From Deroplatys truncata (Eukaryota; Arthropoda; Insecta; Mantodea; Mantidae), in assembly GCA_030765065.1 (NCBI GenBank), contig CM060989.1, positions 40,973,501 through 41,037,500 on the forward strand: a stretch of DNA of 64,000 nucleotides, written 5' to 3'. The stretch's first letter is position 1, and each line of letters starts with the position of its first letter. This document shows positions 15,655 through 41,901 of this stretch, piece after piece. Below the pieces are notes generated by a model. The model saw nothing but the letters and a program-made list of their open reading frames with translations, did no database searches and was not told the origin of the DNA. The position numbers and the translations under genes were made by a program.

Positions 15655-15656
15655 TA

Positions 15657-18545: not shown

Positions 18546-19497
18546 AAATGTTTTTTTACTTTCTATACTACGCATAGTAAGTAGGGGAAGATTGCATTCC
18601 ACTAAAAAAATTGATACCGAGATTTCCACCGGAAATACATGTTTTGAGGTCTCCTGAATCCAAAAAAAGTATTTTTGGAAACATGTCCATGTGTGTGTCT
18701 GTGAACAGCATAACTCAGAAACGAACAGTTGGATAAACACCAAACTTGGTATTTGTGTTCAGTATCTTCCAGAAATGCAACACGAAGGTTTTCAAGAAAA
18801 TCCCCCCACCCCAGATTACCCTTTACCTGGAACATTTTTCGAAAATTTTAATTTTCTCAAAAATGGCTCTTACAATTTTGATTAAAATATCATATGCTTA
18901 AGACATTTTTATGGCAAATGAAATGTATATCTCGAATTTTCTGGGAATGTCTCCAAAAGCATTCTTCATTGTGAACAACTTTTGCTTAACTGGTAAACCA
19001 TAAGAGATAGACAAAATTTTACTACACAAAAAATGTAGATCGCGTTAAAATACATAATTTATGTCATATACATTTTGTTGTTGAGTGAACCATTTTCGAG
19101 ATATTGCTTGTTACTCCCTTAAATTTTCCAATACTTGTTTTCTCAAATGGGAATTCGTTATTCATTTTTTTTGTCTTGAATATGCAAAGAGTATTAATCT
19201 GTGGCAAAGAGAATAGTGCTGCACATAGCAACCAGCTATCATGAGATATGTCTATGCTTAAAGGCTACTGTATTTCTATATTGCCCTTGCAAATACAAAA
19301 CAAAGGGAACATAGTACGCCTTAAGCGATAGTCAAATATTTTTAAAACTGGTCGCAATGTGTAGAATATAATTCTCTTAGCATGTCAAAAGATTGTTTCT
19401 GCAAACGTTTATTTCGATCAATATTAAACATATGGAGAATAAAAGTTTGTAAAAATAGTCTGTACAAGAGTAGAGAAATTCATGCGAGTGTAACACA
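18546..19497 (+). repeat. DR1 dispersed repeat, full length
   Basis: About 950 bp, the best full-length reference copy here. It runs from tttactttctatactacgca through ccaaacttggtatttgtgtt and aactggtaaaccataagaga to agagtagagaaattcatgcg and gtaacacatca. There is no open frame of note, so it is probably a non-autonomous DNA element. Confidence 0.85.
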
Positions 19498-22004: not shown

Positions 22005-22063
22005 GACTTTCTCTACTACGTATAGTAAGTAGCGGAAGTATTGTATTCCACGCAAAAATTCGA
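22005..22063 (+). repeat. DR1 copy, 5' piece (host of the giant element)
   Basis: gactttctctactacgtata ... attgtattccacgcaaaa followed by attcga (22,058-22,063). It is continued at 41,152. Confidence 0.9.
22058..22063. repeat. Target-site duplication, left (ATTCGA)
   Basis: Exact 6-bp direct repeat with 41,152-41,157. The unoccupied DR1 text at about 10,735-10,755 (reverse strand) has a single aattcgataccgag, which shows what the site looked like before insertion. Confidence 0.9.
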
Positions 22064-22086
22064 AGTAGATATAACATGGCGACTTG

Positions 22087-22107
22087 AGAACAATGGGCTA
22101 TTGTTCT
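22087..22107. repeat. Hairpin near the left tip
   Basis: agaacaat and attgttct form a perfect 8-bp stem around a 5-base loop, 23 bp from the tip. Further agaacaa and attgttct copies follow at about 22,111-22,141. The same structure is at the right tip (about 41,108-41,128). Such end-proximal palindromes could bind a transposase, integrase or terminal protein; that role is inferred. Confidence 0.7.
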
Positions 22108-22144
22108 GGTGAGAACAAAGGAATTAATGACCTATTGTTCTGAC

Positions 22145-22560
22145 TTCAAGCCCCGCCCCCTCCCTTTGTGTGCTACTATTTGCCGCCCGGTCGCGTGCCG
22201 CTAGCTCCGCCCCCTTCCCTTTGTGTGCTGATCTAATGCCGACAGTGTCTGTGCCGGCAGGTCCTCCCCCCTCCCCCCCCTGCGGTCACGTGCCGGTGAC
22301 CCGCCCCCCTCCCTCCCCCATACGCGTGTCCTCCCTCCCCTTTGTGTTCTGGTTGGTTCCCTGTGGATAGGTGGGAGAGTGTGTATTGTTCCTATACGGT
22401 GACTACATTCCCGCCCCCTCATTGTGACTTGTCTAAATCCCTGCCGTGTGATTGGCTTGGGGTAGGGGATGTGCCGCTCGGGGTGAGGGGTATAAGGGAA
22501 TGGGGTTCTCGGTGCGTGACGTTGGCGGTGTGGGAATGCGATTCTCGATGCCTGCCGCAC
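22145..22560. repeat. GC-rich, C-tract repeat block near the left end
   Basis: Degenerate repeats of a core like ccgccccctccctttgtgtg appear at 22,152, 22,205 and 22,330, interleaved with cgtgccg-type and gtgccggcag-type segments. Base composition is sharply different from the surrounding AT-rich DNA. Open frames here read as Pro/Arg low complexity and differ between arms because of indels, so they are not genes. Mirror copy: about 40,651-41,070. Confidence 0.75.
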
Positions 22561-22644
22561 ATCGGCAAATCGTTTGAGTACATAATTGTGTCAATCAATT
22601 AGGTAATGTGTGTTATTGAAAAAAGAATGCCCATCATATTACTA

Positions 22645-24745
22645 CTAATGCAATTAAACGCGGTTCTTCGAGCAATTAAGTATTTTTGATTGAATTCGCG
22701 CGCACCTGGTCCTAAACCCCCCTTATATTACTACTATTGCAATGAAACGCGGCTAGTCGGTTGATGAATACATTTAAGTATTTTTGAATGATTAATTGAC
22801 TCGCGCGCAACTGTTTGTTATCGTATATGTGTGGTAGCATGTGTATAATTATTACGAGTAATAACATTTATTTAATTCTACTTTTGAGGGAAAATATATT
22901 TTGGATTTATAAGAATATTACAACACATAGATGAAAGGACAGACTTGACGTAACACTCGTTATCGCGTGATAATTGAGGTGGAACACCGACCGCAACCTT
23001 CCACAGCGAGACGTTTCACACGAATGACTGACTCTCGATATTTGGACTGGCAAGTCGACTTCCGCATCCCCTCCACTCCCGCTTCAGTTCGCCAGCTACA
23101 CTAGCGCACCAAGTGGTAATATGAGTGAAACTCCAGCGAGTGTTTGCTCACAGCGCCCCTGGTGGTCATATCCGAAAGTTGTGAATTCACCATATTTAAA
23201 TTCGAGGTGTACGCAAGACGGCCATCTTAACTCTATATAATTCTGCGAAATATGATTCCGGAAAAAAAAATAAAGTCGAATTAACATGCAAGGGGCGTTC
23301 ATGCTGGCTCCGGAGGAATTGATTATGAAATAAATAAAAAATAAATAAGACTCTCGCTGATCGATGAATACAATGAATAATTAATGTAATTGACTCACGC
23401 TCCTAGAGATATCTCACCCAATTATTCATCTACCATGAATATCTCACTTCTAATGAAACGACGCAGTCTATCGATTAAAAACAATTAAGTTTTTTTTATT
23501 GATTAATGTAATTGATTTGCGCGCAACTGTTCGTTATCGTATATGCGAGAATATTACGCGTATATAACTATTACGGCTAATAACGTGTGTTTAATTCTTC
23601 TTTTGAATTGCGGGTTTATAAAAAACATTACATTGCTTAGATGAATTAAAAAGCAACTTAAAGCGAAATTGCAAATAGCTTGTATGAGACGTTAACACGA
23701 GAACCTTTTACGAAAAAACAAGACGCAATGTGACAGCAATGCCCCGTCCATCATGAGAGGCGGTTAAACCAGGACGCGTGGGTTTTCCCCACTACCTGCT
23801 CTTAATGGCTAGGGGTATCCAGCACATCGAGTACGCTTCAACTGACGTTAAAAATAAAAGCCCTCTATGTCTCTTCTCACACGAGAGAAGTAATAATTAC
23901 AATTCAAAACAGGCGTACCTGTAAGTAACACGCACGAAGACTTCAAATATAAATTTTATATTCGTTTTAAATGTTCTTTCTAAAGACGTAGCGAACTTTG
24001 AGAAATTCAACGAATTATTCACTGGCGTACACTGCCTGAAAGAAATATGGTGTACACCCCCTGAAGAATGCATATGTAGACCCATTAGCAGACAACGGCA
24101 AACTCTTCCGCACCATTAATTTTCGTCAGAAGAATGTAAAAACAAGGTCTTGTATAGAGCTCTTAGTGAACAATAACACCCGTTTCCAATTCATTAAACA
24201 GGCTAAGTGCTCTGAAAAACCACAGACCCTCGGGGTAAATAACAATTACCGGCACAAAAGATTTTCTTAAGAGCTTCCTCTGTCCAGAAATACCATCATA
24301 CACAGGGGAAAACCAATCTAGACATGTTTTAAGCTTATCACAAAAAATGTTTTCCGATAATTAATATAATTCTACATGAAGAATATTAATGATTTAAGTT
24401 TTCAATTAAACGTATACTGTATAGATTCTGTACTTAAACATTCGATTGTATCTTTGTCATTATTTAAATACTCGCGTACAAGAAATGCAAACATGATATC
24501 AAAAAATTAAACTGATTTTTTTTCGGGATGTTAAACAAAGAAATATGATTTGGCGAGAGTAATATGAAGAATAAAAAGTATTCAGAATGATATTACATAC
24601 GTTATTAAAATAAGGCTCTCGCTGATCGATGAAAACAATTAAATATTTTTTATTAATTAATTTATATGAATTGACTCGCGCATTTGCTTGCTGTCGTATG
24701 TGCATGATTATTACGACTAATAGCATTTGTTTAATTCTAAATAAT
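22645..24745. repeat. Subterminal repeat region, left arm
   Basis: Five diverged copies of a module occur at about 22,645, 22,738, 23,343, 23,453 and 24,612. The module reads roughly gaaacgcg.., gatcgatgaatacaatt, a T-rich stretch, taattgactcgcgcgcaact, then (in three copies) gttatcgtatatg and ttacga.taata.cattt. No gene is seen in this 2.1 kb. Mirror copies occupy about 38,465-40,566. They could serve replication, end recognition or transcription control, but nothing shows which. Confidence 0.7.
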
Positions 24746-24929
24746 GAAATATGGAGCCTTGCCTAAACAATCCTCGTTACTCTTAATTTATTCCATTTTT
24801 AAAAAGATTGGGCTTAGTAAACATAGGACGAGTACGATTTTAAATACCCCATCCATTCGAGAGATATTTTTCGAATATTCCAGCATGTTAATATAAACTT
24901 AATACACACACACGCACAAATTCATTTCA

Positions 24930-26371
24930 AGTAATCTAACGATATTGAATAAAATATTAAATGTTTAAGATATTGTAATGAGAAATGAATTGTATATCTC
25001 GAATTTTCTGGGCCGCAGGCTGCAGGATCGCTCATCAAATACCGTAATGATTCAGACACCCGAACACCCGAATGGTAAGCATTCTTCAGAGTTTTTAAAT
25101 AAGTAATGTAACAATTCATATTAACTTCTTGTTCATATTCTTTATTATTATTTGTATTATTATTTCCAGGAAGTGGACTTTATTTTGGTATCGACCATCC
25201 ATCGAGCGCTGCACAGGCAGCGCCAGGCTTCCAGACCTTCCTGGTACCAAATCATCATGGAGGCGGCTCTACCATCCGTACATGCAGCAACACTCGTAAG
25301 GTGAGAATTTACAGACGGGTGTTTGAGGATTTTAACTAAAAAATTACATGATAGTAGACATACAATGTCGATTCTGGCACACAAAGGCATGCCTCCGACA
25401 GCATAGAGTTCTGGATTGTATAAGAAGAAAAGGATATATTTAAGGGGAGTTTCTCGCCCATATGCAGTCACATAACTCTTTCGGTCTCCCAGAATGCTAT
25501 GTATTTTTCACGAGGGTGTTTAAAACATGTATTTTTTTTTCACGTATAGAGTGTAGATTCTTTAGAACTCTGTACTTAAACATGCTATACTATTATTATT
25601 TATTTATTTTTTCCAGGAAATGGACTTTATTTCGGAGGCGGTATCGGTCAACATGCGACCGCTGCACCGGTAGCATCAGGCTTCGCGAGCGTTGTACCAG
25701 CAGGCTTCGCGACCGCTGCACCGCCACCTCCAGGCTTCCAGACCTTCCTGGCACCAAATAAGCAGGGTGGGGGCCCTGCCCCATACATGCAGCAAGCACC
25801 GAACGGTAAGAATTTTTTCAATATTTTATGAAGTTCTTTTTACACATTCTATATTATTATTAATATTGTTATTATTTTCAGGAAGTGGACTTTATTTCGG
25901 AGGCGGGTTTTTTCTGGGAATGTCTCCAAAGTATTCTTCATTCTGAACGACTTTTGCAAAACTGATAAACCATAAGAGATAGACAAAATTTTACTACACA
26001 AAAAATGGAGATCGCGTTAAAATACATAATTTATAACATATACATTCTTGTTGTTGAGTAAATCGTTTTTCGAGATATTGCTTGTTATTCCATTAAAATT
26101 TTCCAATACTTATACTTTTTCTCAAATTCATTATTCTTGTTTTATGTCCTCGATATGCAAAGAGAATGGAATGCACCACATAGCAACCAGCGTTAAAATA
26201 TTTGACTATCGCTTAAAACCTATCATATTCACATTGTATCGTCATGAAAATTACCAATAACATTGACATCCCGATATCTCGATTAACATGAAGCATATAG
26301 GGAATAAGTGCTTGTAAAAAATAGTTTGTACAAGAGTAGAGAAAGCCATGTGAGTGTACACATCAGATTTT
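24930..26371 (+). repeat. DR1 copy inside the left arm, split by a captured segment
   Basis: 24,930-25,012 follows DR1 to tatctcgaattttctggg. DR1 resumes at 25,919 with aatgtctccaaagtattctt and runs to acacatcagattttttg at 26,371. A second DR1 fragment lies at 26,385-26,560. Because the same arrangement is in the right arm, the palindrome formed, or was homogenised, after these insertions. Confidence 0.85.
25013..25909 (+). pseudogene. Captured fragment of a repetitive-exon host-like gene
   Basis: Three exon-like blocks share one theme and phase. 25,170-25,295 is 42 codons with donor C|GTAAGG. 25,617-25,805 is 63 codons with donor G|GTAAG. An exon start lies at 25,882, and the tail of an earlier exon ends at 25,074 with AATG|GTAAG. 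Each begins after a TTATTATT...TTTCCAG or TTTTCAG acceptor and encodes GLYFG..., then Ala/Pro/Gly-rich text with PGFQTFL(V/A)PN and YMQQAPNG. All introns are phase 1, so exons can be repeated without shifting frame. The protein looks low-complexity (structural or cuticle/secreted type) but I do not recognise it. No promoter, start codon or stop is visible, so it is a captured internal fragment. It is flanked by TTTTCTGGG direct repeats (25,004-25,012 and 25,910-25,918). Confidence 0.7.
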
Positions 26372-26875
26372 TTGATATTGGTTTAAATTTTCAAATACTT
26401 TTAACTTTTCTCAAGCGGTAACTCGCTATTCGTTTTTTCCCGTGGTAATGCATAGAGAATAGAATTATAAAGCCATCACATAGCATCAGACGTTCTTTAA
26501 ACATCTGTAACGTGTCTATTCACAATCGAAAGGTTGCTGGTTCGAGGAAAATTATATCTACAGAAACAATACATTATTTTCGCTCTATGATTAATTTGGT
26601 AATGTAACAATAATTAACAATGAATTTTTAGCGGTAAATGTAAAAAATAAAATATATTTTTTATTTCCTAGCGTCATACGCAGAAGCATTCCCCTTAAGG
26701 AACGCTGGCGTGAGCGATGGTTTCCCCATAACGGGTTTAGACTTGCTTACGAAATGTCCCTGTGCGAGGCTAGCATTTCCCTCTCCTTCTCGAATTTTTG
26801 GAGTAGCCAATCAAAATTGCTGTATTATATAACGTCACACCTCTCACCCCTTCAGATTTTTATCAGGCGAAGCGA

Positions 26876-26908
26876 TATAAAAGCAGTAGCTTCCCCAGCG
26901 ATTTCACT
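26876..26908 (+). promoter_or_regulatory. Gene A core promoter, left arm (TATA + Inr)
   Basis: TATAAAA at 26,876-26,882 and an arthropod-type initiator TCACT at 26,904-26,908. The Inr A is 30 bp from the first T of the TATA box, the canonical spacing. The start codon lies 75 bp downstream. This is a strong, focused promoter rather than random AT-rich sequence. Confidence 0.8.
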
Positions 26909-26980
26909 GTATTGTGACAACACAGCGAGCTAAGATCTCCGCAAACTTTTCTCATTCAAAGTGAAATTTCAACGAACATC

Positions 26981-28350
26981 ATGTCTGGTAAGTTGTAACA
27001 AAACACTTCATTTACTTTAAAAGTTAAATTATTACTCTGTACATTTAACTTATATTCGCGTTCTTGTTTTTAATGCATGGCATTTATATGCGAATAGCTG
27101 AGCATTCTAAAAGTTAATAGCTAGACAAGTGAATTTTCTGAAATGTGAACAGTTTAGTTAAGTATTCATTTTAGGCAAGCTTATTCTACATTTAATAGCT
27201 AACTGCGCGAATTCTCAAAATGGGAACAATTTAGTTAAGTATTCACCTTGTTGAGTAATTATTATTCCAGATATTTAAATACAGGATTTCACAGAGTGAA
27301 TTATATTCCTTTTTGGAGAAAATACAATTACTTGAATACCTTATTAACGTTTTTGCTTTAGAATATTACAAAACGTCTGTTGCGCGAATCATTCGCTCTA
27401 ACAAAGTAAATATCTACATTATATTAAAACATTTAAATTGAAAAATACAGTACTTAATGAACTTCATTAGTGAATCAGAACCTCAATTATATTTACACAT
27501 ATTATCATTTTCAGAAAAAAGTTAATAAGTTTGTAACTTTCAAATAAATGAAATTTTTGTTATGCAACACATTCTCTAATAAAGAATATGTTTTTTTCTC
27601 TTCCTAATGCAGAAAGTTTGACATCTCAACTTAACACATTGGCTGAGGGTAGCATTTACCCAGCCGTTCAAAGACTACAAGATCTTCAGCCAGAGGAGCC
27701 TTATAATATAAAATCCTTAAGAAAAATTGATACTCGATACGGTGCTAGAGTCGTTGCACTTTTAGAGAATAAGCAAGTGTTTCTCCCGACAAGATATTCA
27801 ACCCTAACAAGCCAACAGTTGGAGGAAATGCCTGGGAAGTTTCAAATGGTATATCACGGAGTAGTACCAGCCGGCAAGTTTAAGACATGTAAATTGTCTT
27901 TTCTTCCTATTAAGGTTTGTAGAAATAATTCAGCTATCCTTTCAAAGCTTCATTTAGAGTTACATTCGTTGAGTTTATAAATTCGCACTTCAGTAGGATA
28001 ACATTTGTCTAAAGTATACATCAATATGTAAAAAAAATAACGTCCAGGATGTAGTCTGAGCGAGGATCTGCAGAAAGAAGTTTAATAGTCTATTCACTGA
28101 TTCTTTACCTCAAAGCAGATACCTACAGTAAGTTTCAAATAATTTCCAGCACGATAGCAGTTGTCAAAAGCAGGCATCACTGTATTAAAAAAATATGTGT
28201 AAATAATGTCTAGATTGTACTCTGTGTGATTTCGTGCAGAAAGAACTTTAATACCCCTTGCAGTGATTCTCCACATCGAAGTATATACCTACAAGAAGTT
28301 GCAAATAATGTGAATGTGTGTTACAGGAATGCCCAGCTGAATGTAAATGA
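26981..28350 (+). CDS. Gene A, left copy: spliced 110-codon protein, OB-fold-like pattern
   Basis: Model: exon 1 at 26,981-26,987 (ATGTCTG, donor GTAAGT), exon 2 at 27,613-27,914 (acceptor ttcctaatgcag), exon 3 at 28,327-28,350 (acceptor gtgttacag; stop TGA). The pieces sum to 333 nt in one frame. Exon 2 carries YNIKSLRKIDTRYGARVVAL and VFLPTRYSTL. That pattern (aromatic, LR, T-R-Y-G, then V-F-L-P-x-R) recalls short arthropod proteins I associate with OB-like folds and single-strand DNA binding; this is from memory and unverified. The second donor (AAG|GTTTGT) is weak. It is supported because the right arm has a stop-creating change 18 bases into this intron, which matters only if the intron were coding. 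Read-through would instead end at 27,980. Intron 2 holds a tandem duplication of about 170 bp (28,010-28,150 and 28,185-28,325). The poly(A) signal is at 28,712-28,717. Confidence 0.7.
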
Positions 28351-28711
28351 AGAGGAAGAACGAGATAGCTTAAAACATCATAAACAGAAATGTGATAGGA
28401 ACATTCTCAACACCTCCCAGTAACCTCAATCAATGAAGAATTGCACCAGTGCGGAACATACATGGAAAAAACATCCGAGTGTGTAGAATATAACAATAAT
28501 ATATATATATAATTATGTACTCATTATTACTGCTATACCAGCCTATACCATTGATTTCATAAATAATTTCATAATTGTTTAAGGAGAATGCCTATCTTAA
28601 AAACATTGATGCTACATGAACTATTACTGAAAGAGACTTGAATAAATGGGAATCTAGAAGCCAGAACCATCTTAATATTGGGCTGTATGATATGAGGTGT
28701 ATAAAAAGATT

Positions 28712-28752
28712 AATAAAAAAATGAGGTCTATGTAATATAAACAACATTTATT
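28712..28752. terminator. Facing poly(A) signals of genes A and B, left arm
   Basis: AATAAA on the plus strand at 28,712-28,717 serves gene A. TTTATT at 28,747-28,752 is AATAAA on the minus strand and serves gene B. They lie 30 bp apart, so the two genes are tail to tail with almost no spare sequence. Confidence 0.7.
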
Positions 28753-29009
28753 TTTTATAAACATTTTCCTATTACATTCCTATACAAAAAAACATACATA
28801 TTTCCTAAAGACAAAGGTGATAGTCTAGACATTCTAAAACACTCAGTTATATAATCATATACATCACACAGAAAGAGACCTGCATTATCCATAAAAAACT
28901 AAACATCTCAAGAATGTCTGGATGATGTATTTTATAAGTACAAGGTTTTGATATTTCAAAGTTCCTGTTAACCATGACTGTAATTGATTAACACAATTTC
29001 TCGATCCTG

Positions 29010-29477
29010 TCATGCTATAACTTTAGAAGCTTTCAGCTTACTTATAATCTCCTCAATCTCTTGTGTGTGACTATTATTACCAGCATTCCTCGATGCAATT
29101 AGTAACCTCAATATATTTACTAGTCTATTTGGATTTTCAAGCGTAGATATCACTGAATCATCATCATATGAAGATTTCATATTCTCGCGACTCCCGCTGT
29201 ATCCAGATTTTTCACCATCAGTAGTCTCCAGTGAAGGACAGAGGCTTGATCCGGTATAACATCCCCCTCTATACATCTTCGGATCTTCGAGTGTAGGAGA
29301 GAGAGTCGATCCAGTATAACATGTTGCTCTATGAAGCTTAAATCTTGACAAAGAACGATTCTTAAAAATCCGCTCGCATATACAGCATCTAATGACGTGT
29401 TTTCCTCCATGTGTAATGTATGAAAAATTGAGTTTCTCATCCGCTAGTTGCACAGATTTTCTCCGGCAGGAGCTCAT
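29010..29477 (-). CDS. Gene B, left copy: 155-aa zinc-finger protein
   Basis: A single-exon frame starting MSSCRRKSVQLADEKL. Residues about 30-55 hold a zinc-finger pattern: C-x2-C (CCIC), 14 residues, then H-x3-C (HRATC), resembling C2HC or BED-type fingers and suggesting DNA or RNA binding. Two CYTGS blocks follow (CYTGSTLSPTLEDP and CYTGSSLCPSLETT), a short internal duplication. The acidic/Ser-rich middle leads to a predicted helical C-terminus (RLVNILRLLIASRN ... EIEEIISKLKASK) that could dimerise. The frame is intact and identical in both arms, a sign of constraint or recent duplication. It is transcribed toward gene A. I do not recognise the family. Confidence 0.65.
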   Translation of the reverse strand: MSSCRRKSVQLADEKLNFSYITHGGKHVIRCCICERIFKNRSLSRFKLHRATCYTGSTLSPTLEDPKMYRGGCYTGSSLCPSLETTDGEKSGYSGSRENMKSSYDDDSVISTLENPNRLVNILRLLIASRNAGNNSHTQEIEEIISKLKASKVIA

Positions 29478-29542
29478 GCTAAAACTAAAAGAAATTAAAT
29501 GAATACGGGAATGCTAACGCTCGAAGGAATTAAAAGCGAATG

Positions 29543-29576
29543 AATGAATTCATAACACGCAGCTATGTATATATTC
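29543..29576 (-). promoter_or_regulatory. Gene B core promoter, left arm
   Basis: On the minus strand GAATATATACATA (TATATA at 29,568-29,573) lies about 90 bp before the start codon, placing initiation near 29,543. It sits between the satellite and gene B; the mirror TATATA is at 33,635-33,640. A tttcttttag just before the start codon could alternatively be an acceptor for an unseen leader exon. Confidence 0.55.
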
Positions 29577-29730
29577 AGTGTGAGGACGCCGGAGGGAATC
29601 GCAATCTTCTCATAGCAGCGGGAAAGGATGCTCTCTGGAAACATTTGTGGAGAAGGAGGCTCTCAACAGAACATGGCGAATGCGAGCATGGAAAAAGGAT
29701 GCTCTCTGGGAACATTCGTGGAAAAGGCTG

Positions 29731-32700
29731 CGTAACAAAGGAATCATGCCATGTAACAAAGGAATCACGCTAAGTAACAAAGGAATCACGCTATGTAACA
29801 AAGGAATCACGCTATGTAACAAAGGAATCACGCTATGTAACAAAGGAATCACGCTATGTAACAAAGGAATCACGCCATGTAACAAAGAAATCTCGCCATG
29901 TAACAAAGGAATCGCGCTATGTAACAAAGGAATCACGCTATGTAACAAAGGAATCGCGCCATGTAACAAAGGAATCACGCCATGTAACAAAGGAATCGCG
30001 CCATGTAACAAAGGAATCGCGCCATGTAACAAAGGAATCGCGCCATGTAACAAAGGAATCGCGCTAAGTAACAAAGGAATCGCGCTATGTAACAAAGGAA
30101 TCGCGCTATGTAACAAAGGAATCGCGCTATGTAACAAAGGAATCGCTCTATGTAACAAAGGAATCACGCCATGTAACAAAGGAATCACGCCATGTAACAA
30201 AGGAATCGCGCCATGTAACAAAGGAATCGCGCCATGTAACAAAGGAATCGCGCTATGTAACAAAGGAATCGCGCTATGTAACAAAGGAATCGCGCTATGT
30301 AACAAAGGAATCGCGCTATGTAACAAAGGAATCGCGCTATGTAACAAAGGAATCGCGCTATGTAACAAAGGAATCGCGCCATGTAACAAAGGAATCGCGC
30401 TATGTAACAAAGGAATCGCGGTATGTAACAAAGGAATCGCGGTATGTAACAAAGGAATCCCGCTATGTAACAAAGGAATCGCGCTATGTAACAAAGGAAT
30501 CCCGCTATGTAACAAAGGAATCCCGGTATGTAACAAAGGAATCGCGGTATGTAACAAAGGAATCGCGCTATGTAACAAAGGAATCCCGCTATGTAACAAA
30601 GGAATCCCGGTATGTAACAAAGGAATCACGCCATGTAACAAAGGAATCACGCTATGTAACAAAGGAATCGCGCTATGTAACAAAGGAATCGCGGTATGTA
30701 ACAAAGGAATCACGCCATGTAACAAAGGAATCACGCTATGTAACAAAGGAATCGCGCTATGTAACAAAGGAATCGCGGTATGTAACAAAGGAATCACGCC
30801 ATGTAACAAAGGAATCACGCTATGTAACAAAGGAATCGCGGTATGTAACAAAGGAATCCCGCTATGTAACAAAGGAATCGCGCTATGTAACAAAGGAATC
30901 CCGCTATGTAACAAAGGAATCCCGGTATGTAACAAAGGAATCGCGGTATGTAACAAAGGAATCGCGCTATGTAACAAAGGAATGCCGCTATGTAACAAAG
31001 GAATCCCGGTATGTAACAAAGGAATCACGCCATGTAACAAAGGAACCACGCTATGTAACAAAGGAATCGCGCTATGTAACAAAGGAATCGCGGTATGTAA
31101 CAAAGGAATCACGCCATGTAACAAAGGAATCACGCTATGTAACAAAGGAATCGCGCTATGTAACAAAGGAATCGCGCCATGTAACAAAGGAATCACACCA
31201 TGTAACAAAGGAATCGCGCCATGTAACAAAGGAATCGCTCTATGTAACAAAGGAATCACGCCATGTAACAAAGGAATCACGCCATGTAACAAAGGAATCG
31301 CTCTATGTAACAAAGGAATCACGCCATGTAACAAAGGAATCGCGCCATGTAACAAAGGAATCGCGCCATGTAACAAAGGAATCGCGCCATGTAACAAAGG
31401 AATCACGCCATGTAACAAAGGAATCGCGCCATGTAACAAAGGAATCGCTCCATGTAACAAAGGAATCGCGCTATGTAACAAAGGAATCGCGCTATGTAAC
31501 AAAGGAATCGCGCCATGTAACAAAGGAATCGCGCTATGTAACAAAGGAATCGCGCTATGTAACAACGGAATCGCGCCATGTAACAACGGAATCGCGCCAT
31601 GTAACAAAGGAATCGCGGTATTTAACAAAGGATTCGCGGTATGTAACAAAGGAATCGCGCCATGTAACAAAGGAATCGCGCCATGTAACAAAGGAATCAC
31701 GCCATGTAACAAAGGAATCGCGCTATGTAACAAAGGAATCGCGCTATGTAACAAAGGAATCGCGCCATGTAACAAAGGAATCGCGCCATGTAACAAAGGA
31801 ATCGCGCTATGTAACAAAGGAATCGCGCTATGTAACAAAGGAATCGCACTATGTAACAAAGGAATCGCGCCATGTAACAAAGGAATCGCGCCATGTAACA
31901 AAGGAATCGCGCCATGTAACAAAGGAATCACGCCATGTAACAAAGGAATCGCGCTATGTAACAAAGGAATCGCGGTATGTAACAAAGGAATCACGCCATG
32001 TAACAAAGGAATCACGCTATGTAACAAAGGAATCGCGCTATGTAACAAAGGAATCGCGGTATGTAACAAAGGAATCGCGCTATGTAACAAAGGAATCGCG
32101 CTATGTAACAAAGGAATCGCGCTGTGTAACAAAGGAATCTCGGTATGTAACAAAGGAATCGCGCTATGTAACAAAGGAATCGCGCTATGTAACAAAGGAA
32201 TCGCGCTATGTAACAAGCTCATCACTGTATGTAACAAACTGATCACGCTATGTAACAAACTGATCAGGCTATGTAACAAAGGAATCGCGCTATGTAACAA
32301 GCTCATCACGCTATGTAACAAACTGATCACGCTATGTAACAAAGGAATCACGCTATGTAACAAAGGAATCACGCTATGTAACAAAGGAATCACGCTATGT
32401 AACAAAGGAATCGCGCTATGTAACAAAGGAATCGCGGTATGTAACAAAGGAATCGCGCCATGTAACAACGGAATCGCGCCATGTAACAAAGGAATCACGC
32501 CATGTAACAAAGGAATCGCGCCATGTAACAAAGGAATCGCGCCATGTAACAAAGGAATCGCGCCATGTAACAAAGGAATCACGCCATGTAACAAAGGAAT
32601 CGCGCCATGTAACAAAGGAATCGCACCATGTAACAAAGGAATCGCGCTATGTAACAAAGGAATCGCGCTATGTATCAAAGGAATCACGCCATGTAACAAA

Positions 32701-33380
32701 GGAATCACGCCATGTAACAAAGGAATCGCGCAATGTAACAAAGGAATCGCGCCATGTAACAAAGGAATCGCGCCATGTAACAAAGGAATCGCGCCATGTA
32801 ACAAAGGAATCACGCCATGTAACAAAGGAATCACGCCATGTAACAAAGGAATCGCGCTATGTAACAAAGGAATCGCGGTATGTAACAAAGGAATCACGCC
32901 ATGTAACAAAGGAATCACGCTATGTAACAAAGGAATCGCGCTATGTAACAAAGGAATCGCGGTATGTAACAAAGGAATCGCGCTATGTAACAAATGAATC
33001 GCGCTATGTAACAAAGGAATCGCGCTGTGTAACAAAGGAATCGCGGTATGTAACAAAGGAATCGCGCTATGTAACAAAGGAATCGCGCTATGTAACAAAG
33101 GAATCGCGCTATGTAACAAGCTCATCACTGTATGTAACAAACTGATCACGCTATGTAACAAACTGATCAGGCTATGTAACAAAGGAATCGCGCTATGTAA
33201 CAAGCTCATCACGCTATGTAACAAACTGATCACGCTATGTAACAAAGGAATCACGCTATGTAACAAAGGAATCACGCTATGTAACAAAGGAATCACGCTA
33301 TGTAACAAAGGAATCACGCTATGTAACAAAGGAATCACGCTATGTAACAATGGAATCACGCTATGTAACAAACTGGTCAG
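29731..33380. repeat. Central 21-bp satellite array
   Basis: About 174 head-to-tail monomers of atgtaacaaaggaatcgcgc+t. Variants occur at a few positions (atcacg, atcccg, gccatg, ggtatg) and there are rarer types, aaactgatcacg and aagctcatcactg. Runs of variants recur: one cluster repeats after 399 bp (19 monomers; about 30,457 and 30,856) and the aagctcatc cluster after 903 bp (43 monomers; 32,217 and 33,120). Because 21 is divisible by 3, long open frames of over 1,100 codons arise on both strands (CNKGIAL and HSAIPLL repeats). These are not evidence of a protein. Confidence 0.95.
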
Positions 33381-33407
33381 GTACATAGCGCAATCAGGTT
33401 GTTACGC

Positions 33408-33620
33408 AGCCTTTTCCACAAACGTTTCCAGAGAGCATCCTTTTTCCATGCTCGCACTCGTTTGTTCTGTTGAGAGCATCCTTTTTCCACGAATGTTCCC
33501 AGAGAGCATCCTTTTTCCATGCTCGCATTCGCCATGTTCTGTTGAGAGCCTCCTTCTCCACAAATGTTTCCAGAGAGCATCCTTTCCCGCTGCTATGCGA
33601 AGATTGCGATTCCCTCCGGC
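33408..33620 (-). repeat. Inner-arm roughly 71-bp repeat, three copies
   Basis: Read on the minus strand, a unit beginning aaaggatgctctctggaaac and ending gcgagcatggaa occurs three times; the left arm (29,628-29,728) has two. It sits between the gene B promoter and the satellite. Confidence 0.7.
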
Positions 33621-33634
33621 GTCCTCACACTGAA

Positions 33635-33668
33635 TATATACATAGCTGCGTGTTATGAATTCATTCAT
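33635..33668 (+). promoter_or_regulatory. Gene B core promoter, right arm
   Basis: TATATA at 33,635-33,640, with the start codon 91 bp downstream at 33,731. Mirror of the left-arm promoter. The two gene B promoters therefore point away from the satellite. Confidence 0.55.
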
Positions 33669-33730
33669 TCGCTTTTAATTCCTTCGAGCGTTAGCATTCC
33701 CGTATTCATTTAATTTCTTTTAGTTTTAGC

Positions 33731-34198
33731 ATGAGCTCCTGCCGGAGAAAATCTGTGCAACTAGCGGATGAGAAACTCAATTTTTCATACATTACACATG
33801 GAGGAAAACACGTCATTAGATGCTGTATATGCGAGCGGATTTTTAAGAATCGTTCTTTGTCAAGATTTAAGCTTCATAGAGCAACATGTTATACTGGATC
33901 GACTCTCTCTCCTACACTCGAAGATCCGAAGATGTATAGAGGGGGATGTTATACCGGATCAAGCCTCTGTCCTTCACTGGAGACTACTGATGGTGAAAAA
34001 TCTGGATACAGCGGGAGTCGCGAGAATATGAAATCTTCATATGATGATGATTCAGTGATATCTACGCTTGAAAATCCAAATAGACTAGTAAATATATTGA
34101 GGTTACTAATTGCATCGAGGAATGCTGGTAATAATAGTCACACACAAGAGATTGAGGAGATTATAAGTAAGCTGAAAGCTTCTAAAGTTATAGCATGA
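33731..34198 (+). CDS. Gene B, right copy: 155-aa zinc-finger protein
   Basis: Inverted duplicate of 29,010-29,477 with the same 155-residue translation, including the C-x2-C-x14-H-x3-C finger and the two CYTGS blocks. The poly(A) signal AATAAA is near 34,457. It reads away from the satellite and converges with gene A. Confidence 0.65.
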   Translation: MSSCRRKSVQLADEKLNFSYITHGGKHVIRCCICERIFKNRSLSRFKLHRATCYTGSTLSPTLEDPKMYRGGCYTGSSLCPSLETTDGEKSGYSGSRENMKSSYDDDSVISTLENPNRLVNILRLLIASRNAGNNSHTQEIEEIISKLKASKVIA

Positions 34199-34859
34199 CA
34201 GGATCGAGAAATTGTGTTAATCAATTACAGTCATGGTTAACAGGAACTTTGAAATATCAAAACCTTGTACTTATAAAATACATCATCCAGACATTCTTGA
34301 GATGTTTAGTTTTTTATGGATAATGCAGGTCTCTTTCTGTGTGATGTATATGATTATATAACTGAGTGTTTTAGAATGTCTAGACTATCACCTTTGTCTT
34401 TAGGAAATATGTATGTTTTTTTGTATAGGAATGTAATAGGAAAATGTTTATAAAAAATAAATGTTGTTTATATTACATAGACCTCATTTTTTTATTAATC
34501 TTTTTATACACCTCATATCATACAGCCCAATATTAAGATGGTTCTGGCTTCTAGATTCCCATTTATTCAAGTCTCTTTCAGTAATAGTTCATGTAGCATC
34601 AATGTTTTTAAGATAGGCATTCTCCTTAAACAATTATGAAATTATTTATGAAATCAATGGTATAGGCTGGTATAGCAGTAATAATGAGTACATAATTATA
34701 TATATATATATTATTGTTATATTCTACACACTCGGATGTTTTTTCCATGTATGTTCCGCACTGGTGCAATTCTTCATTGATTGAGGTTACTGGGAGGTGT
34801 TGAGAATGTTCCTATCACATTTCTGTTTATGATGTTTTAAGCTATCTCGTTCTTCCTCT

Positions 34860-36228
34860 TCATTTACATTCAGCTGGGCATTCCTGTAACACACATTCAC
34901 ATTATTTGCAACTTCTTGTAGGTATATACTTCGATGTGGAGAATCACTGCAAGGGGTATTAAAGTTCTTTCTGCACGAAATCACACAGAGTACAATCTAG
35001 ACATTATTTACACATATTTTTTTAATACAGTGATGCCTGCTTTTGACAACTGCTATCGTGCTGGAAATTATTTGAAACTTACTGTAGGTATCTGCTTTGA
35101 GGTAAAGAATCAGTGAATAGACTATTAAACTTCTTTCTGCAGATCCTCGCTCAGACTACATCCTGGACGTTATTTTTTTACATATTGATGTATACTTTAG
35201 ACAAATGTTATCCTACTGAAGTGCGAATTTATAAACTCAACGAATGTAACTCTAAATGAAGCTTTGAAAGGATAGCTCAATTATTTCTACAAACCTTAAT
35301 AGGAAGAAAAGACAATTTACATGTCTTAAACTTGCCGGCTGGTACTACTCCGTGATATACCATTTGAAACTTCCCAGGCATTTCCTCCAACTGTTGGCTT
35401 GTTAGGGTTGAATATCTTGTCGGGAGAAACACTTGCTTATTCTCTAAAAGTGCAACGACTCTAGCACCGTATCGAGTATCAATTTTTCTTAAGGATTTTA
35501 TATTATAAGGCTCCTCTGGCTGAAGATCTTGTAGTCTTTGAACGGCTGGGTAAATGCTACCCTCAGCCAATGTGTTAAGTTGAGATGTCAAACTTTCTGC
35601 ATTAGGAAGAGAAAAAAACATATTCTTTATTAGAGAATGTGTTGCATAACAAAAATTTCATTTATTTGAAAGTTACAAACTTATTAACTTTTTTCTGAAA
35701 ATGATAATATGTGTAAATATAATTGAGGTTCTGATTCACTAATGAAGTTCATTAAGTACTGTATTTTTCAATTTAAATGTTTTAATATAATGTAGATATT
35801 TACTTTGTTAGAGCGAATGATTCGCGCAACAGACTTTTTGTAATATTCTAAAGCAAAAACGTTAATAAGGTATTCAAGTAATTGTATTTTCTCCAAAAAG
35901 GAATATAATTCACTCTGTGAAATCCTGTATTTAAATATCTGGAATAATAATTACTCAACAAGGTGAATACTTAACTAAATTGTTCCCATTTTGAGAATTC
36001 GCGCAGTTAGCTATTAAATGTAGAATAAGCTTGCCTAAAATGAATACTTAACTAAACTGTTCACATTTCAGAAAATTCACTTGTCTAGCTATTAACTTTT
36101 AGAATGCTCAGCTATTCGCATATAAATGCCATGCATTAAAAACAAGAACGCGAATATAAGTTAAATGTACAGAGTAATAATTTAACTTTTAAAGTAAATG
36201 AAGTGTTTTGTTACAACTTACCAGACAT
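34860..36228 (-). CDS. Gene A, right copy: spliced 110-codon protein
   Basis: Exons at 36,228-36,222, 35,596-35,295 and 34,883-34,860, with the same splice sites as the left copy. Exon 2 translation is unchanged. Just after the exon 2 donor a C-to-G change turns the unspliced reading frame into a stop (NN then TGA), whereas the spliced model is untouched. The promoter is at 36,301-36,333. An intact duplicate gene in each arm gives the element two doses of both products. Confidence 0.7.
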
Positions 36229-36300
36229 GATGTTCGTTGAAATTTCACTTTGAATGAGAAAAGTTTGCGGAGATCTTAGCTCGCTGTGTTGTCACAATAC

Positions 36301-36333
36301 AGTGAAATCGCTGGGGAAGCTACTGCTTTTATA
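36301..36333 (-). promoter_or_regulatory. Gene A core promoter, right arm
   Basis: TATAAAA on the minus strand (36,333-36,327) and initiator TCACT (36,305-36,301), with the same 30-bp spacing as in the left arm. Confidence 0.8.
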
Positions 36334-36838
36334 TCGCTTCGCCTGATAAAAATCTGAAGGGGTGAGAGGTGTGACGTTATATAATACAGCAATTTTGATT
36401 GGCTACTCCAAAAATTCGAGAAGGAGAGGGAAATGCTAGCCTCGCACAGGGACATTTCGTAAGCAAGTCTAAACCCGTTATGGGGGAAACCATCGCTCAC
36501 GCCAGCGTTCCTTAAGGGGAATGCTTCTGCGTATGACGCTAGGAAATAAAAAATATATTTTATTTTTTACATTTACCGCTAAAAATTCATTGTTAATTAT
36601 TGTTACATTACCAAATTAATCATAGAGCGAAAATAATGTATTGTTTCTGTAGATATAATTTTCCTCGAACCAGCAACCTTTCGATTGTGAATAGACACGT
36701 TACAGATGTTTAAAGAACGTCTGATGCTATGTGATGGCTTTATAATTCTATTCTCTATGCATTACCACGGGAAAAAACGAATAGCGAGTTACCGCTTGAG
36801 AAAAGTTAAAAGTATTTGAAAATTTAAACCAATATCAA

Positions 36839-38280
36839 AAAATCTGATGTGTACACTCACATGGCTTTCTCTACTCTTGTACAAACTATTTTTTACAAGC
36901 ACTTATTCCCTATATGCTTCATGTTAATCGAGATATCGGGATGTCAATGTTATTGGTAATTTTCATGACGATACAATGTGAATATGATAGGTTTTAAGCG
37001 ATAGTCAAATATTTTAACGCTGGTTGCTATGTGGTGCATTCCATTCTCTTTGCATATCGAGGACATAAAAAAAGAATAATGAATTTGAGAAAAAGTATAA
37101 GTATTGGAAAATTTTAATGGAATAACAAGCAATATCTCGAAAAACGATTTACTCAACAACAAGAATGTATATGTTATAAATTATGTATTTTAACGCGATC
37201 TCCATTTTTTGTGTAGTAAAATTTTGTCTATCTCTTATGGTTTATCAGTTTTGCAAAAGTCGTTCAGAATGAAGAATACTTTGGAGACATTCCCAGAAAA
37301 AACCCGCCTCCGAAATAAAGTCCACTTCCTGAAAATAATAACAATATTAATAATAATATAGAATGTGTAAAAAGAACTTCATAAAATATTGAAAAAATTC
37401 TTACCGTTCGGTGCTTGCTGCATGTATGGGGCAGGGCCCCCACCCTGCTTATTTGGTGCCAGGAAGGTCTGGAAGCCTGGAGGTGGCGGTGCAGCGGTCG
37501 CGAAGCCTGCTGGTACAACGCTCGCGAAGCCTGATGCTACCGGTGCAGCGGTCGCATGTTGACCGATACCGCCTCCGAAATAAAGTCCATTTCCTGGAAA
37601 AAATAAATAAATAATAATAGTATAGCATGTTTAAGTACAGAGTTCTAAAGAATCTACACTCTATACGTGAAAAAAAAATACATGTTTTAAACACCCTCGT
37701 GAAAAATACATAGCATTCTGGGAGACCGAAAGAGTTATGTGACTGCATATGGGCGAGAAACTCCCCTTAAATATATCCTTTTCTTCTTATACAATCCAGA
37801 ACTCTATGCTGTCGGAGGCATGCCTTTGTGTGCCAGAATCGACATTGTATGTCTACTATCATGTAATTTTTTAGTTAAAATCCTCAAACACCCGTCTGTA
37901 AATTCTCACCTTACGAGTGTTGCTGCATGTACGGATGGTAGAGCCGCCTCCATGATGATTTGGTACCAGGAAGGTCTGGAAGCCTGGCGCTGCCTGTGCA
38001 GCGCTCGATGGATGGTCGATACCAAAATAAAGTCCACTTCCTGGAAATAATAATACAAATAATAATAAAGAATATGAACAAGAAGTTAATATGAATTGTT
38101 ACATTACTTATTTAAAAACTCTGAAGAATGCTTACCATTCGGGTGTTCGGGTGTCTGAATCATTACGGTATTTGATGAGCGATCCTGCAGCCTGCGGCCC
38201 AGAAAATTCGAGATATACAATTCATTTCTCATTACAATATCTTAAACATTTAATATTTTATTCAATATCGTTAGATTACT
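36839..38280 (-). repeat. DR1 copy inside the right arm, split by a captured segment
   Basis: Mirror of 24,930-26,371, with a second DR1 fragment at about 36,650-36,826. Confidence 0.85.
37301..38197 (-). pseudogene. Captured repetitive-exon fragment, right-arm copy
   Basis: Inverted copy of 25,013-25,909 with the same exon blocks (about 37,405-37,593 and 37,915-38,040) and splice sites. The predicted peptides are identical in both arms. Confidence 0.7.
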
Positions 38281-38464
38281 TGAAATGAATTTGTGCGTGT
38301 GTGTGTATTAAGTTTATATTAACATGCTGGAATATTCGAAAAATATCTCTCGAATGGATGGGGTATTTAAAATCGTACTCGTCCTATGTTTACTAAGCCC
38401 AATCTTTTTAAAAATGGAATAAATTAAGAGTAACGAGGATTGTTTAGGCAAGGCTCCATATTTC

Positions 38465-40566
38465 ATTATTTAGAATTAAACAAATGCTATTAGTCGTAAT
38501 AATCATGCACATACGACAGCAAGCAAATGCGCGAGTCAATTCATATAAATTAATTAATAAAAAAATATTTAATTGTTTTCATCGATCAGCGAGAGCCTTA
38601 TTTTAATAACGTATGTAATATCATTCTGAATACTTTTTATTCTTCATATTACTCTCGCCAAATCATATTTCTTTGTTTAACATCCCGAAAAAAAATCAGT
38701 TTAATTTTTTGATATCATGTTTGCATTTCTTGTACGCGAGTATTTAAATAATGACAAAGATACAATCGAATGTTTAAGTACAGAATCTATACAGTATACG
38801 TTTAATTGAAAACTTAAATCATTAATATTCTTCATGTAGAATTATATTAATTATCGGAAAACATTTTTTGTGATAAGCTTAAAACATGTCTAGATTGGTT
38901 TTCCCCTGTGTATGATGGTATTTCTGGACAGAGGAAGCTCTTAAGAAAATCTTTTGTGCCGGTAATTGTTATTTACCCCGAGGGTCTGTGGTTTTTCAGA
39001 GCACTTAGCCTGTTTAATGAATTGGAAACGGGTGTTATTGTTCACTAAGAGCTCTATACAAGACCTTGTTTTTACATTCTTCTGACGAAAATTAATGGTG
39101 CGGAAGAGTTTGCCGTTGTCTGCTAATGGGTCTACATATGCATTCTTCAGGGGGTGTACACCATATTTCTTTCAGGCAGTGTACGCCAGTGAATAATTCG
39201 TTGAATTTCTCAAAGTTCGCTACGTCTTTAGAAAGAACATTTAAAACGAATATAAAATTTATATTTGAAGTCTTCGTGCGTGTTACTTACAGGTACGCCT
39301 GTTTTGAATTGTAATTATTACTTCTCTCGTGTGAGAAGAGACATAGAGGGCTTTTATTTTTAACGTCAGTTGAAGCGTACTCGATGTGCTGGATACCCCT
39401 AGCCATTAAGAGCAGGTAGTGGGGAAAACCCACGCGTCCTGGTTTAACCGCCTCTCATGATGGACGGGGCATTGCTGTCACATTGCGTCTTGTTTTTTCG
39501 TAAAGGGTTCTCGTGTTAACGTCTCATACAAGCTATTTGCAATTTCGCTTTAAGTTGCTTTTTAATTCATCTAAGCAATGTAATGTTTTTTATAAACCCG
39601 CAATTCAAAAGAAGAATTAAACACACGTTATTAGCCGTAATAGTTATATACGCGTAATATTCTCGCATATACGATAACGAACAGTTGCGCGCAAATCAAT
39701 TACATTAATCAATAAAAAAAACTTAATTGTTTTTAATCGATAGACTGCGTCGTTTCATTAGAAGTGAGATATTCATGGTAGATGAATAATTGGGTGAGAT
39801 ATCTCTAGGAGCGCGAGTCAATTACATTAATTATTCATTGTATTCATCGATCAGCGAGAGTCTTATTTATTTTTTATTTATTTCATAATCAATTCCTCCG
39901 GAGCCAGCATGAACGCCCCTTGCATGTTAATTCGACTTTATTTTTTTTTCCGGAATCATATTTCGCAGAATTATATAGAGTTAAGATGGCCGTCTTGCGT
40001 ACACCTCGAATTTAAATATGGTGAATTCACAACTTTCGGATATGACCACCAGGGGCGCTGTGAGCAAACACTCGCTGGAGTTTCACTCATATTACCACTT
40101 GGTGCGCTAGTGTAGCTGGCGAACTGAAGCGGGAGTGGAGGGGATGCGGAAGTCGACTTGCCAGTCCAAATATCGAGAGTCAGTCATTCGTGTGAAACGT
40201 CTCGCTGTGGAAGGTTGCGGTCGGTGTTCCACCTCAATTATCACGCGATAACGAGTGTTACGTCAAGTCTGTCCTTTCATCTATGTGTTGTAATATTCTT
40301 ATAAATCCAAAATATATTTTCCCTCAAAAGTAGAATTAAATAAATGTTATTACTCGTAATAATTATACACATGCTACCACACATATACGATAACAAACAG
40401 TTGCGCGCGAGTCAATTAATCATTCAAAAATACTTAAATGTATTCATCAACCGACTAGCCGCGTTTCATTGCAATAGTAGTAATATAAGGGGGGTTTAGG
40501 ACCAGGTGCGCGCGAATTCAATCAAAAATACTTAATTGCTCGAAGAACCGCGTTTAATTGCATTAG
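38465..40566. repeat. Subterminal repeat region, right arm
   Basis: Mirror of 22,645-24,745 with the same five diverged modules in inverse order. Confidence 0.7.
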
Positions 40567-40650
40567 TAGTAATATGATGGGCATTCTTTTTTCAATAACA
40601 CACATTACCTAATTGATTGACACAATTATGTACTCAAACGATTTGCCGAT

Positions 40651-41128
40651 GTGCGGCAGGCATCGAGAATCGCATTCCCACACCGCCAACGTCACGCACC
40701 GAGAACCCCATTCCCTTATACCCCTCACCCCGAGCGGCACATCCCCTACCCCAAGCCAATCACACGGCAGGGATTTAGACAAGTCACAATGAGGGGGCGG
40801 GAATGTAGTCACCGTATAGGAACAATACACACTCTCCCACCTATCCACAGGGAACCAACCAGAACACAAAGGGGAGGGAGGACACGCGTATGGGGGAGGG
40901 AGGGAGGGGGGCGGGTCACCGGCACGTGACCGCAGGGGGGGGAGGGGGGACGACCTGCCGGCACAGACACTGTCGGCATTAGATCAGCACACAAAGGGAA
41001 GGGGGCGGAGCTAGCGGCACGCGACCGGGCGGCAAATAGTAGCACACAAAGGGAGGGGGCGGGGCTTGAAGTCAGAACAATAGGTCATTAATTCCTTTGT
41101 TCTCACCAGAACAATAGCCCATTGTTCT
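40651..41128. repeat. GC-rich block and tip hairpin, right arm
   Basis: Mirror of 22,087-22,560. It differs from the left block by at least one substitution (C/G near 40,955) and a 4-bp insertion in the agggagggaggg run near 40,905. The agaacaat / attgttct hairpin is at about 41,108-41,128. Confidence 0.75.
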
Positions 41129-41151
41129 CAAGTCGCCATGTTATATCTACT

Positions 41152-41157
41152 ATTCGA
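41152..41157. repeat. Target-site duplication, right (ATTCGA)
   Basis: Matches 22,058-22,063 exactly and directly abuts the last base of the giant element. Confidence 0.9.
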
Positions 41158-41901
41158 TACCGAGATTTCACCGGAAATACATGTTTTGAGACCCCTGAAT
41201 CCAAAAAAACATTTTTGGAAACATGTCCGTGTGTGTGTCTGTCTGTGAACAGCATAACTCAGAAACGAACAGTCGGATAAACACCAAACTTGGTATTTAG
41301 GTTCAGTATCTTCCAGAGATGCGACACGAAGGTTTTCAAGAAAATCCCTCCACCCCAGATTACCCTTTACATGGAACATTTACGAAAATTTAATTTTCTC
41401 AAAAATGGCTAACGATTTTGATTAAAATGTCATATGTTTAGGATATTTTCATGACAAATGAAAAATGTATATCTTGAATTTTCTCCAAAAGTATTCTTCA
41501 TTGTGAACGACTTTTGCATAACTGGTAAACCATAAGAGATAGACAAAATGTGGATCGCGTTAAAATAAAAAATTTATGTCATATACTTTTTTTTTTGCTG
41601 AGTGAACCATTTTCGAGATATTGCTTGTTATTCCCTTAAATTTTCCAATACTTATACTTTTTCTCATATTCGTTATTCATTTTTTTTAGTCCTGGACATG
41701 CAAAGAGAATGGAATGCGCCACATAGCAACCAACGCTTAAAATATTTGACTATCGCTTATAACCTACCATATTCCCCTTGCACCTACAAGAAGATTAGCA
41801 ATAAGATTAACATCTCGATTAACATGAAACATATGGAGAATAAGCGTTCGTAAAAATAGTTTGTACAAGAGTAGAGAAAGTGAGGTGAGGGTAACACATC
41901 A
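41152..41901 (+). repeat. DR1 copy, 3' piece
   Basis: It opens with the second ATTCGA (41,152-41,157), then taccgagatttcaccggaaa, and follows the DR1 consensus to agtagagaaagtgaggtgag and gtaacacatca. Joined to 22,005-22,063 with one ATTCGA it makes a normal DR1 copy of about 0.8 kb. Confidence 0.9.

Follow-up and report, generated by a model that had tools for sequence, protein, structure and literature searches.

Palindromic relatives of Maverick elements in the genome of the mantis Deroplatys truncata

The palindromic element and its insertion site

A 64,000-nucleotide stretch of the genome of the mantis Deroplatys truncata (GenBank assembly GCA_030765065.1, contig CM060989.1, positions 40,973,501 to 41,037,500 of the forward strand), referred to here as the window, carries a palindromic mobile element of 19,088 bp at positions 22064-41151. 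The element belongs to a family related to adintovirus-like Maverick (Polinton) elements, which are themselves abundant in this genome, and so does not stand alone; in each copy the two arms resemble each other. The left arm (22064-29731, + strand) and the right arm (33476-41151, - strand) are 99.77% identical over 7,677 columns; 18 columns differ in the MAFFT alignment, including one 4-base insertion or deletion. An earlier reading of the window from its letters alone, called here the sequence-only reading, had proposed two inverted arms of about 7.7 kb, mirror-image tips starting with AG and the hexamer ATTCGA outside both tips, and direct comparison bears this out. The tips, AGTAG...CTACT, are exact mirror images of each other. 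Exact copies of ATTCGA lie immediately beyond them, at 22058-22063 (+) on the left and 41152-41157 (+) on the right.

The spacer between the arms makes the palindrome asymmetric. It is composed of 173 units of a 21-bp satellite (29732-33372, +) and is followed by the inversion axis (33373-33400, no strand), which comprises the end of the array, a short loop and one degenerate, inverted satellite unit that separates the array from the right arm. This axis, type R(a), is common to the copies C4b and C2. Because the right side contains one extra copy of a 71-bp unit, the arm match, if this unit is allowed for, resumes at ~33397 and extends closer to the satellite than position 33476. Short inverted motifs, AGAACAAT...ATTGTTCT, are found near the tip at 22086-22150 and in its mirror. 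The core of the satellite unit, AACAAAGGAAT, is present in the same two places and nowhere else in the window outside the array, and the satellite may descend from the tip of the element.

The site as it was before insertion can be recognized in a related repeat elsewhere in the window. When the two flanks are joined with one ATTCGA, they match the repeat at 10804-10658 with 90% identity over 150 columns, and the junction is free of gaps, as expected from the earlier claim that the flanks rejoin into a known repeat. The related repeat carries a single AAAAATTCGATACCG, and the junction is also spanned by other copies of the target repeat within the window. The target belongs to an abundant host repeat family (~22000-22063 and 41158-41850), whose relatives in the window occupy 10160-10804, 15024-16352, 18544-19298 and 49447-50089.

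A genome-wide family and its gene-bearing relative

The source genome (4.29 Gb, 818 contigs) was searched with a 200-bp tip query, and the best 40 of 1,789 candidate stretches were scored. They form 19 plus/minus pairs, the window element among them, and two single ends. The pairs are 16.3-21.5 kb long, except for one of 9.4 kb. AGTAG tips and exact 6-bp duplications are present in all 18 pairs other than the window element (10/10 and 8/8), so that these copies represent a mobile family which, like the Mavericks, duplicates 6 bp on integration. Since host sequence flanks the copies on both sides, the regularity of the duplications also argues against both chance and an artefact at the level of reads. 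The shared ends on which the sequence-only reading had staked its case are thus found in each of the other tip pairs. Altogether AGTAG was read at both tips of 22 two-ended copies, namely the window element, the 18 tip pairs and three capsid-side palindromes described below.

Nine other copies were read to a depth of 8.5 kb from each end, in 9-kb pieces that include 500 bp of flank. Six of them (C4a, C4b, C3, C2, C1a and C1b) are palindromes like the window element. The remaining three (C16a, C10 and C8a) have inverted repeats of only ~0.62-0.65 kb and two unlike halves, and their corresponding halves align at 96-99% across most of the first 7.6 kb. A further eight pairs, together with both single ends, were sampled by 600 bp per end and by 400-bp pieces lying 6 kb inside; for C13, an additional 3.5 kb was read at the centre. 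As far as the ends and one 400-bp piece per side reach, C14a, C16b, C5, C295 and C14b show the palindrome arm at either side, the two in mirror orientation. In C13 it is the polymerase region that appears, mirrored, at either side. C7 and C12 look like full Mavericks by their sampled sequence, the left piece of C12 matching only partly. One single end resembles the capsid half of a full copy and the other matched nothing. The shortest pair, C8short (C8:111669749-111679106, 9.36 kb), retains one whole arm and ~1.58 kb of the other between exact copies of CCTCAC, and is either the result of a later deletion or a mobile one-arm form.

The 21 tip loci therefore comprise 12 with window-type palindrome arms, one truncated palindrome, one palindrome of other make, five copies taken as full, one probably full and one without a match. 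Because the tip query favours window-like copies, these proportions should not be taken as frequencies in the genome. Copies of the arm core (27600-29580) are numerous: the best 40 of 2,120 candidates are all 99-100% identical to it. Other Maverick subfamilies in this genome keep AGTAG and differ in the next ~80 bases, as seen at the tips of C9m and C10m.

The sequence-only reading had regarded the element as a Polinton/Maverick derivative that had lost its core genes, and had suggested a tip search of the genome for relatives carrying DNA polymerase B or a retroviral-type integrase. Such a relative was found in C16a, a copy of ~20 kb with the same tips and a 6-bp duplication, which carries the Maverick genes for the capsid protein, the ATPase, the family-B DNA polymerase (PolB) and the integrase. 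The gene scan covered C16a only, read as three separate pieces. The capsid protein is of the double-jelly-roll type (PF21738, 1e-111) and the ATPase is of the Pox_A32 type. PolB was recognized by PF03175 (2.2e-10); by coordinates its frame continues into the middle piece, which itself gave no PolB match. The integrase core (PF00665, rve, 7.9e-08) scored 32.9 bits against a cut-off of 32.6. A single open reading frame (ORF) of C16a (L010:5616-6341, -) contains both a phospholipase A2 domain and an Adeno_PX (adenovirus protein X) domain. This combination recalls adintoviruses, a likeness seen here in integrated copies.

Comparison with the full copies shows that the window arm is a rearranged version of the polymerase-side end of a full Maverick. 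The left terminal repeat of ~630 bp (22064-22693, +) is common to full Mavericks and is identical over 636 aligned positions to the polymerase-side repeat of C16a, which points to very recent shared ancestry at this end, or to exchange. It forms part of the first block of the arm (22064-25012, +), which corresponds to the outermost 2.95 kb of the polymerase-side end and is 96% identical to C16a. The second block (25014-25904, +) matches at ~90% the piece that lies 4.8-5.7 kb into the Maverick, shifted outward, and contains repeated exon-like modules that code for a glycine-rich peptide of the SGLYFGGG type. The third block (25910-27340, +; arm positions 3847-5277) matches Maverick positions 2.95-4.38 kb at ~91%. 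It includes a host-repeat stretch, present also in the three short-repeat copies, and a start-codon exon at 26981-26987 followed by GTAAGT. The fourth block (27341-29731, +) has only short or weak matches to full copies: 28465-28789 at 61%, 29009-29093 at 83.5% and 29095-29136 at 81%.

The six frames of the left arm gave no Pfam match at E <= 1, and so none to PolB, the rve integrase, the capsid protein or the ATPase, in agreement with the earlier claim that the core genes were lost. As the arm lacks a PolB or integrase match and is far longer than the terminal repeats of vertebrate Mavericks, the window copy is classed as a non-autonomous derivative and not as a Maverick proper. The host-repeat stretch in the Maverick end and in the palindrome arm (25910-26373) belongs to the same family as the target; its use for dating the palindrome was dropped, the three short-repeat copies carrying it too. 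A gene model starting at 25047 was also dropped as doubtful, because the short-repeat copies have the start exon outward of the glycine-rich exons and the block has moved.

Fold-back axes, concerted arms and arm reading frames

The palindromes turn at more than one kind of axis. Within the satellite lineage, one type of junction between arm and array is common to the window element, C4b and C2; the other is found in C4a, C3, C1a and C1b, where the arm meets the inverted array at TTTGT. C1a has the same type of arm-array junction on both sides, and its satellite flips in the middle of the array at CCTTTG-TTA-CAAAGG, a stem of 6 bases with a loop of 3. C13 is a near-perfect palindrome built from the polymerase half. 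Over the central 3.5 kb it is 99.3% self-inverse and turns at a 61-nt loop within the PolB frame; the two tips are identical except at 1 of 300 positions, and the flanking duplication is TAGTTG.

The opposite half of the Maverick has been mirrored as well. A query with the capsid gene, for which the best 40 of 2,780 candidates were considered, recovered three inverted capsid-gene pairs and 34 rows without a partner among the 40. All three pairs are bounded by AGTAG tips and by exact duplications (AATGAA, CGTGTC and CATGCT), located by an offset scan around the tips. C9m is a symmetric capsid-side palindrome with an 18-nt loop and a centre that is 99.5% self-inverse. C4m and C10m are asymmetric, with loops estimated from position at ~3.8 and ~5.4 kb, respectively; at the axis of C4m the two matches overlap by 4 bases at the switch. 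In all four of these palindromes, and in C1a with its 3-nt loop inside the array, one half is duplicated as a mirror image in the manner of a snap-back. Palindromes have thus arisen from either half of the Maverick, in both symmetric and asymmetric form, and fold-back has occurred more than once. The separate turning points support the suggestion of the sequence-only reading that arm-length repeats were gained by snap-back.

The arms of the satellite lineage vary in concert. Seven palindromes (14 arms) were compared, giving 84 between-copy comparisons. The two arms of one copy are 99.47-99.92% identical in six palindromes and 98.67% in C1b, and arms of different copies are 97.16-99.11% identical. 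Among doubleton variants, i.e. biallelic, gap-free sites at which the rarer base occurs in exactly two of the 14 sequences, 94 of 95 pair both arms of one copy and one pairs different copies. Six copies have 5-15 variants each that are confined to a single arm; C1b, an older or poorer copy, has 94. In the short-repeat copies, which serve as a control, the two terminal repeats of one copy are 97.66% (C10), 93.45% (C16a) and 96.86% (C8a) identical, and the polymerase-side repeat of each matches the corresponding repeat of a palindrome better (99.2-100%) than the repeat at the other end of the same copy. The control is weak, since gene conversion acts less readily on a repeat of 0.6 kb than on one of 7.7 kb.

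The two longest ATG-initiated ORFs of the arm are 155 and 130 codons long. Among 300 shuffled sequences, the longest ORF reached 155 codons twice and the second-longest reached 130 once. The 155-residue frame (29010-29477, -; mirrored at 33731-34198, +) contains a CxxC motif followed by H...C, and in its final portion it is similar to the Maverick ORF next to the integrase (83.5% over 85 bases). In 12 of the 14 arms, both arms of C1b being broken there, it first showed four synonymous and two non-synonymous variants. With 20 more sequences, chosen for high similarity, it is intact in 31 of 31, a set that excludes both C1b arms and the right arm of the window element. Selection was not demonstrated in these 31 sequences, which have five synonymous and nine non-synonymous variants (ratio of non-synonymous to synonymous polymorphism, pN/pS, 0.52; p = 0.19). 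A candidate second exon (27613-27980, +) joins the start-codon exon at 26981-26987 in frame (MSESLTSQLNTL...). The databases gave no relative of it. Its copy in the right arm ends 16 codons sooner, and two synonymous and five non-synonymous variants were counted in 13 of the 14 arms (pN/pS 0.71).

Neither of the two arm ORFs has a relative in the protein collection, where one search gave nine candidates, none with E <= 0.01, and the other gave 16, none with E <= 1, the method requiring shared five-residue words. The collection includes arthropod proteins, as a mariner query established, so that these blank results have some meaning. That query was one of three mariner-type transposase remnants in the window, at 16105-16842 (-), 20913-21886 (+) and 53723-54632 (+); the named relatives of the 16105-16842 remnant include proteins of ants, bees, a fly and a scorpion, the best named one, from an ant, being 77% identical. 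No relative of the arm ORFs was found in viral contigs, nor in phages for the one ORF tried. The scanned window ORFs gave only Pfam matches below the cut-off and no PHROG match. Satellite and tip patterns were not found in viral or prokaryote contigs; one 18-base match to the tip in viral contigs is about what chance would give and was not used. Single-sequence structure models had a mean predicted local distance difference test score (pLDDT) of 34.8 and 40.2 and were likewise set aside.

Origin of the palindromes and its significance

The likeness to Maverick/Polinton elements extends over the 6-bp duplications, the AG...CT tips, which are close to the (AGT)2 motif, and the gene content of the same-tip copy C16a. 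Vertebrate Mavericks have (AG)3 or (AGT)2-like termini and terminal repeats of 46-1,447 bp with a mean of 402 bp (PMC8097293). The repeats of C16a, C10 and C8a fall within this range, whereas that of the window element exceeds it, and the window element differs further in that its mirror arms are without a core gene by Pfam. Palindromic Mavericks are not described in the literature searched, which comprised titles and the beginnings of abstracts, with most subscription journals outside it.

Adeno-associated virus offers a parallel for the mirror forms. Its snap-back genomes are symmetric or asymmetric and are derived from the left or the right half (PMC8235507). C13 and C9m resemble the symmetric genomes, and C4m and C10m the asymmetric ones. 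Adeno-associated virus, however, is of another virus class and replicates differently; the snap-back genomes occur there in packaged particles, whereas those described here are chromosomal insertions, of which one lineage has been amplified. Foldback transposons such as Galileo and Tetris are likewise described as having long inverted repeats with tandem repeats and as a source of satellites. The tips and relatives of the present elements are those of Mavericks.

The family with its shared ends and duplications, the gene-bearing relative, the several fold-back axes and the concert of whole arms are probably best explained by snap-back genomes, similar to defective interfering genomes, that were produced during linear Maverick replication and integrated by the Maverick integrase, one lineage being subsequently amplified. 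A strand of a linear Maverick genome, either growing or displaced, would fold back, anneal at a short match and copy its own half out to the tip, creating an identical end on both sides. The Maverick integrase would recognize two such ends and insert the palindrome with a 6-bp duplication. One lineage, derived from the polymerase-side end, would have the satellite as its loop. If its arms were re-copied from one half, or otherwise homogenized, at or near each round, insertions would begin with near-identical arms. This lineage would act as a defective passenger of the full copies. We infer a protein-primed mode of replication, a stage as a free molecule, a helper role of the full copies and the timing of arm copying. 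The AGTAG tips fit the short terminal repeats of a protein-primed start with slide-back, as in adenovirus and phi29.

Several points weigh against this explanation. All of the evidence comes from one assembly and from chromosomal insertions, and the founder event of the satellite lineage is not datable. No adenain-like protease or penton was found by Pfam among the scanned ORFs of C16a. The concert signal rests on whole arms: in the outer 640 bp of the seven palindromes it is weak, with within-copy identities of 99.38-100%. These exceed the identity to the closest other copy in four of the seven (C1a, C4a, C4b and, barely, C1b), equal it in C3, and are lower in C2 and in the window element. 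Even over whole arms, the 98.67% of C1b lies under the best between-copy value of 99.11%. Much of the concert could, furthermore, be produced by gene conversion between the arms after insertion. This leads to a rival explanation, in which the palindrome formed once and moves as an ordinary element with its arms as long terminal repeats, the arms being kept alike by chromosomal gene conversion. The contrast between 98.67-99.92% within copies and 97.16-99.11% between copies is equally expected under such a scheme, with which the weak concert of the outer 640 bp also agrees, and the twelve copies with one arm type imply that the satellite lineage does propagate as a palindrome. The scheme is nevertheless rather doubtful as a full account. 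Four palindromes with unrelated axes (C13, C9m, C4m and C10m) mean that formation recurs, and the same-type junctions of C1a, together with the flip of its array at a hairpin, are not a product of arm-to-arm conversion. Concert is also missing from the 0.6-kb repeats of the short-repeat copies, although these are shorter and so a weak control.

Fold-back might instead have taken place in the chromosome, through a break in an inserted Maverick, self-primed repair and return to the other flank by terminal-repeat homology. The terminal repeats required for such recombination exist, and the 4-base overlap of matches at the C4m axis is a point in its favour. However, two coincident events would be needed for each copy, while 22 of 22 two-ended copies keep exact duplications and both tips. 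The satellite lineage has one arm and axis type at several sites, which counts against a chromosomal origin of that lineage, and the amplified lineage must move as a palindrome anyway. Overall, a chromosomal origin is improbable. It is very hard to believe that the palindromes are assembly artefacts caused by chimeric inverted reads collapsed into contigs. Long-read assembly is known to fail in this way, but the palindromic copies are bounded by exact 6-bp duplications at 17 separate sites: the window element, C4a, C4b, C3, C2, C1a, C1b, C14a, C16b, C5, C295, C14b, C13, C4m, C9m, C10m and the truncated C8short, with C14a, C16b, C5, C295 and C14b known by their ends and one 400-bp piece per side. 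The empty site is moreover demonstrated by the related repeat. Least credible of all is membership of another superfamily. Duplications of 6 bp are reported for IS3EU and GingerRoot (PMC10045372), and elements of the Galileo/FB foldback type are described as having long, internally repetitive inverted repeats. Nevertheless, IS3EU ends in TA...TA and GingerRoot mostly in TA...TA, occasionally in TG...CA (PMC10045372), unlike the AGTAG...CTACT of the family, and the outer 2.95 kb of the window arm is 96% identical to the polymerase-side end of a Maverick copy that carries PolB and an integrase.

The snap-back explanation can be carried one step further. The satellite lineage may be a self-perpetuating half-genome replicator, that is, a defective Maverick lineage that in every cycle rebuilds the second arm from the first, depends on full Mavericks for the enzymes of replication and integration, and has colonized the genome in high number. 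The assembly would then hold a fossil record of defective interfering genomes together with their helper. We consider this extension about as likely as not.

The palindromes described here, which are recurrent and integrated snap-back forms of a Maverick and include one amplified lineage, are a real and unusual phenomenon. Maverick replication has so far been argued mainly from genes. The mirror copies of both halves, whose turning points and exact integration scars can still be read, provide genomic evidence that replication includes a linear stage initiated at the ends and that the template folds back in its course. They suggest, in addition, that a parasite of a virus-like element has succeeded within a genome. 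If transcribed through, the palindromic inserts would yield double-stranded RNA, which may have a bearing on small-RNA defence. The family offers countable and datable events, by which Maverick replication, interference and the origin of a satellite become testable in one animal.

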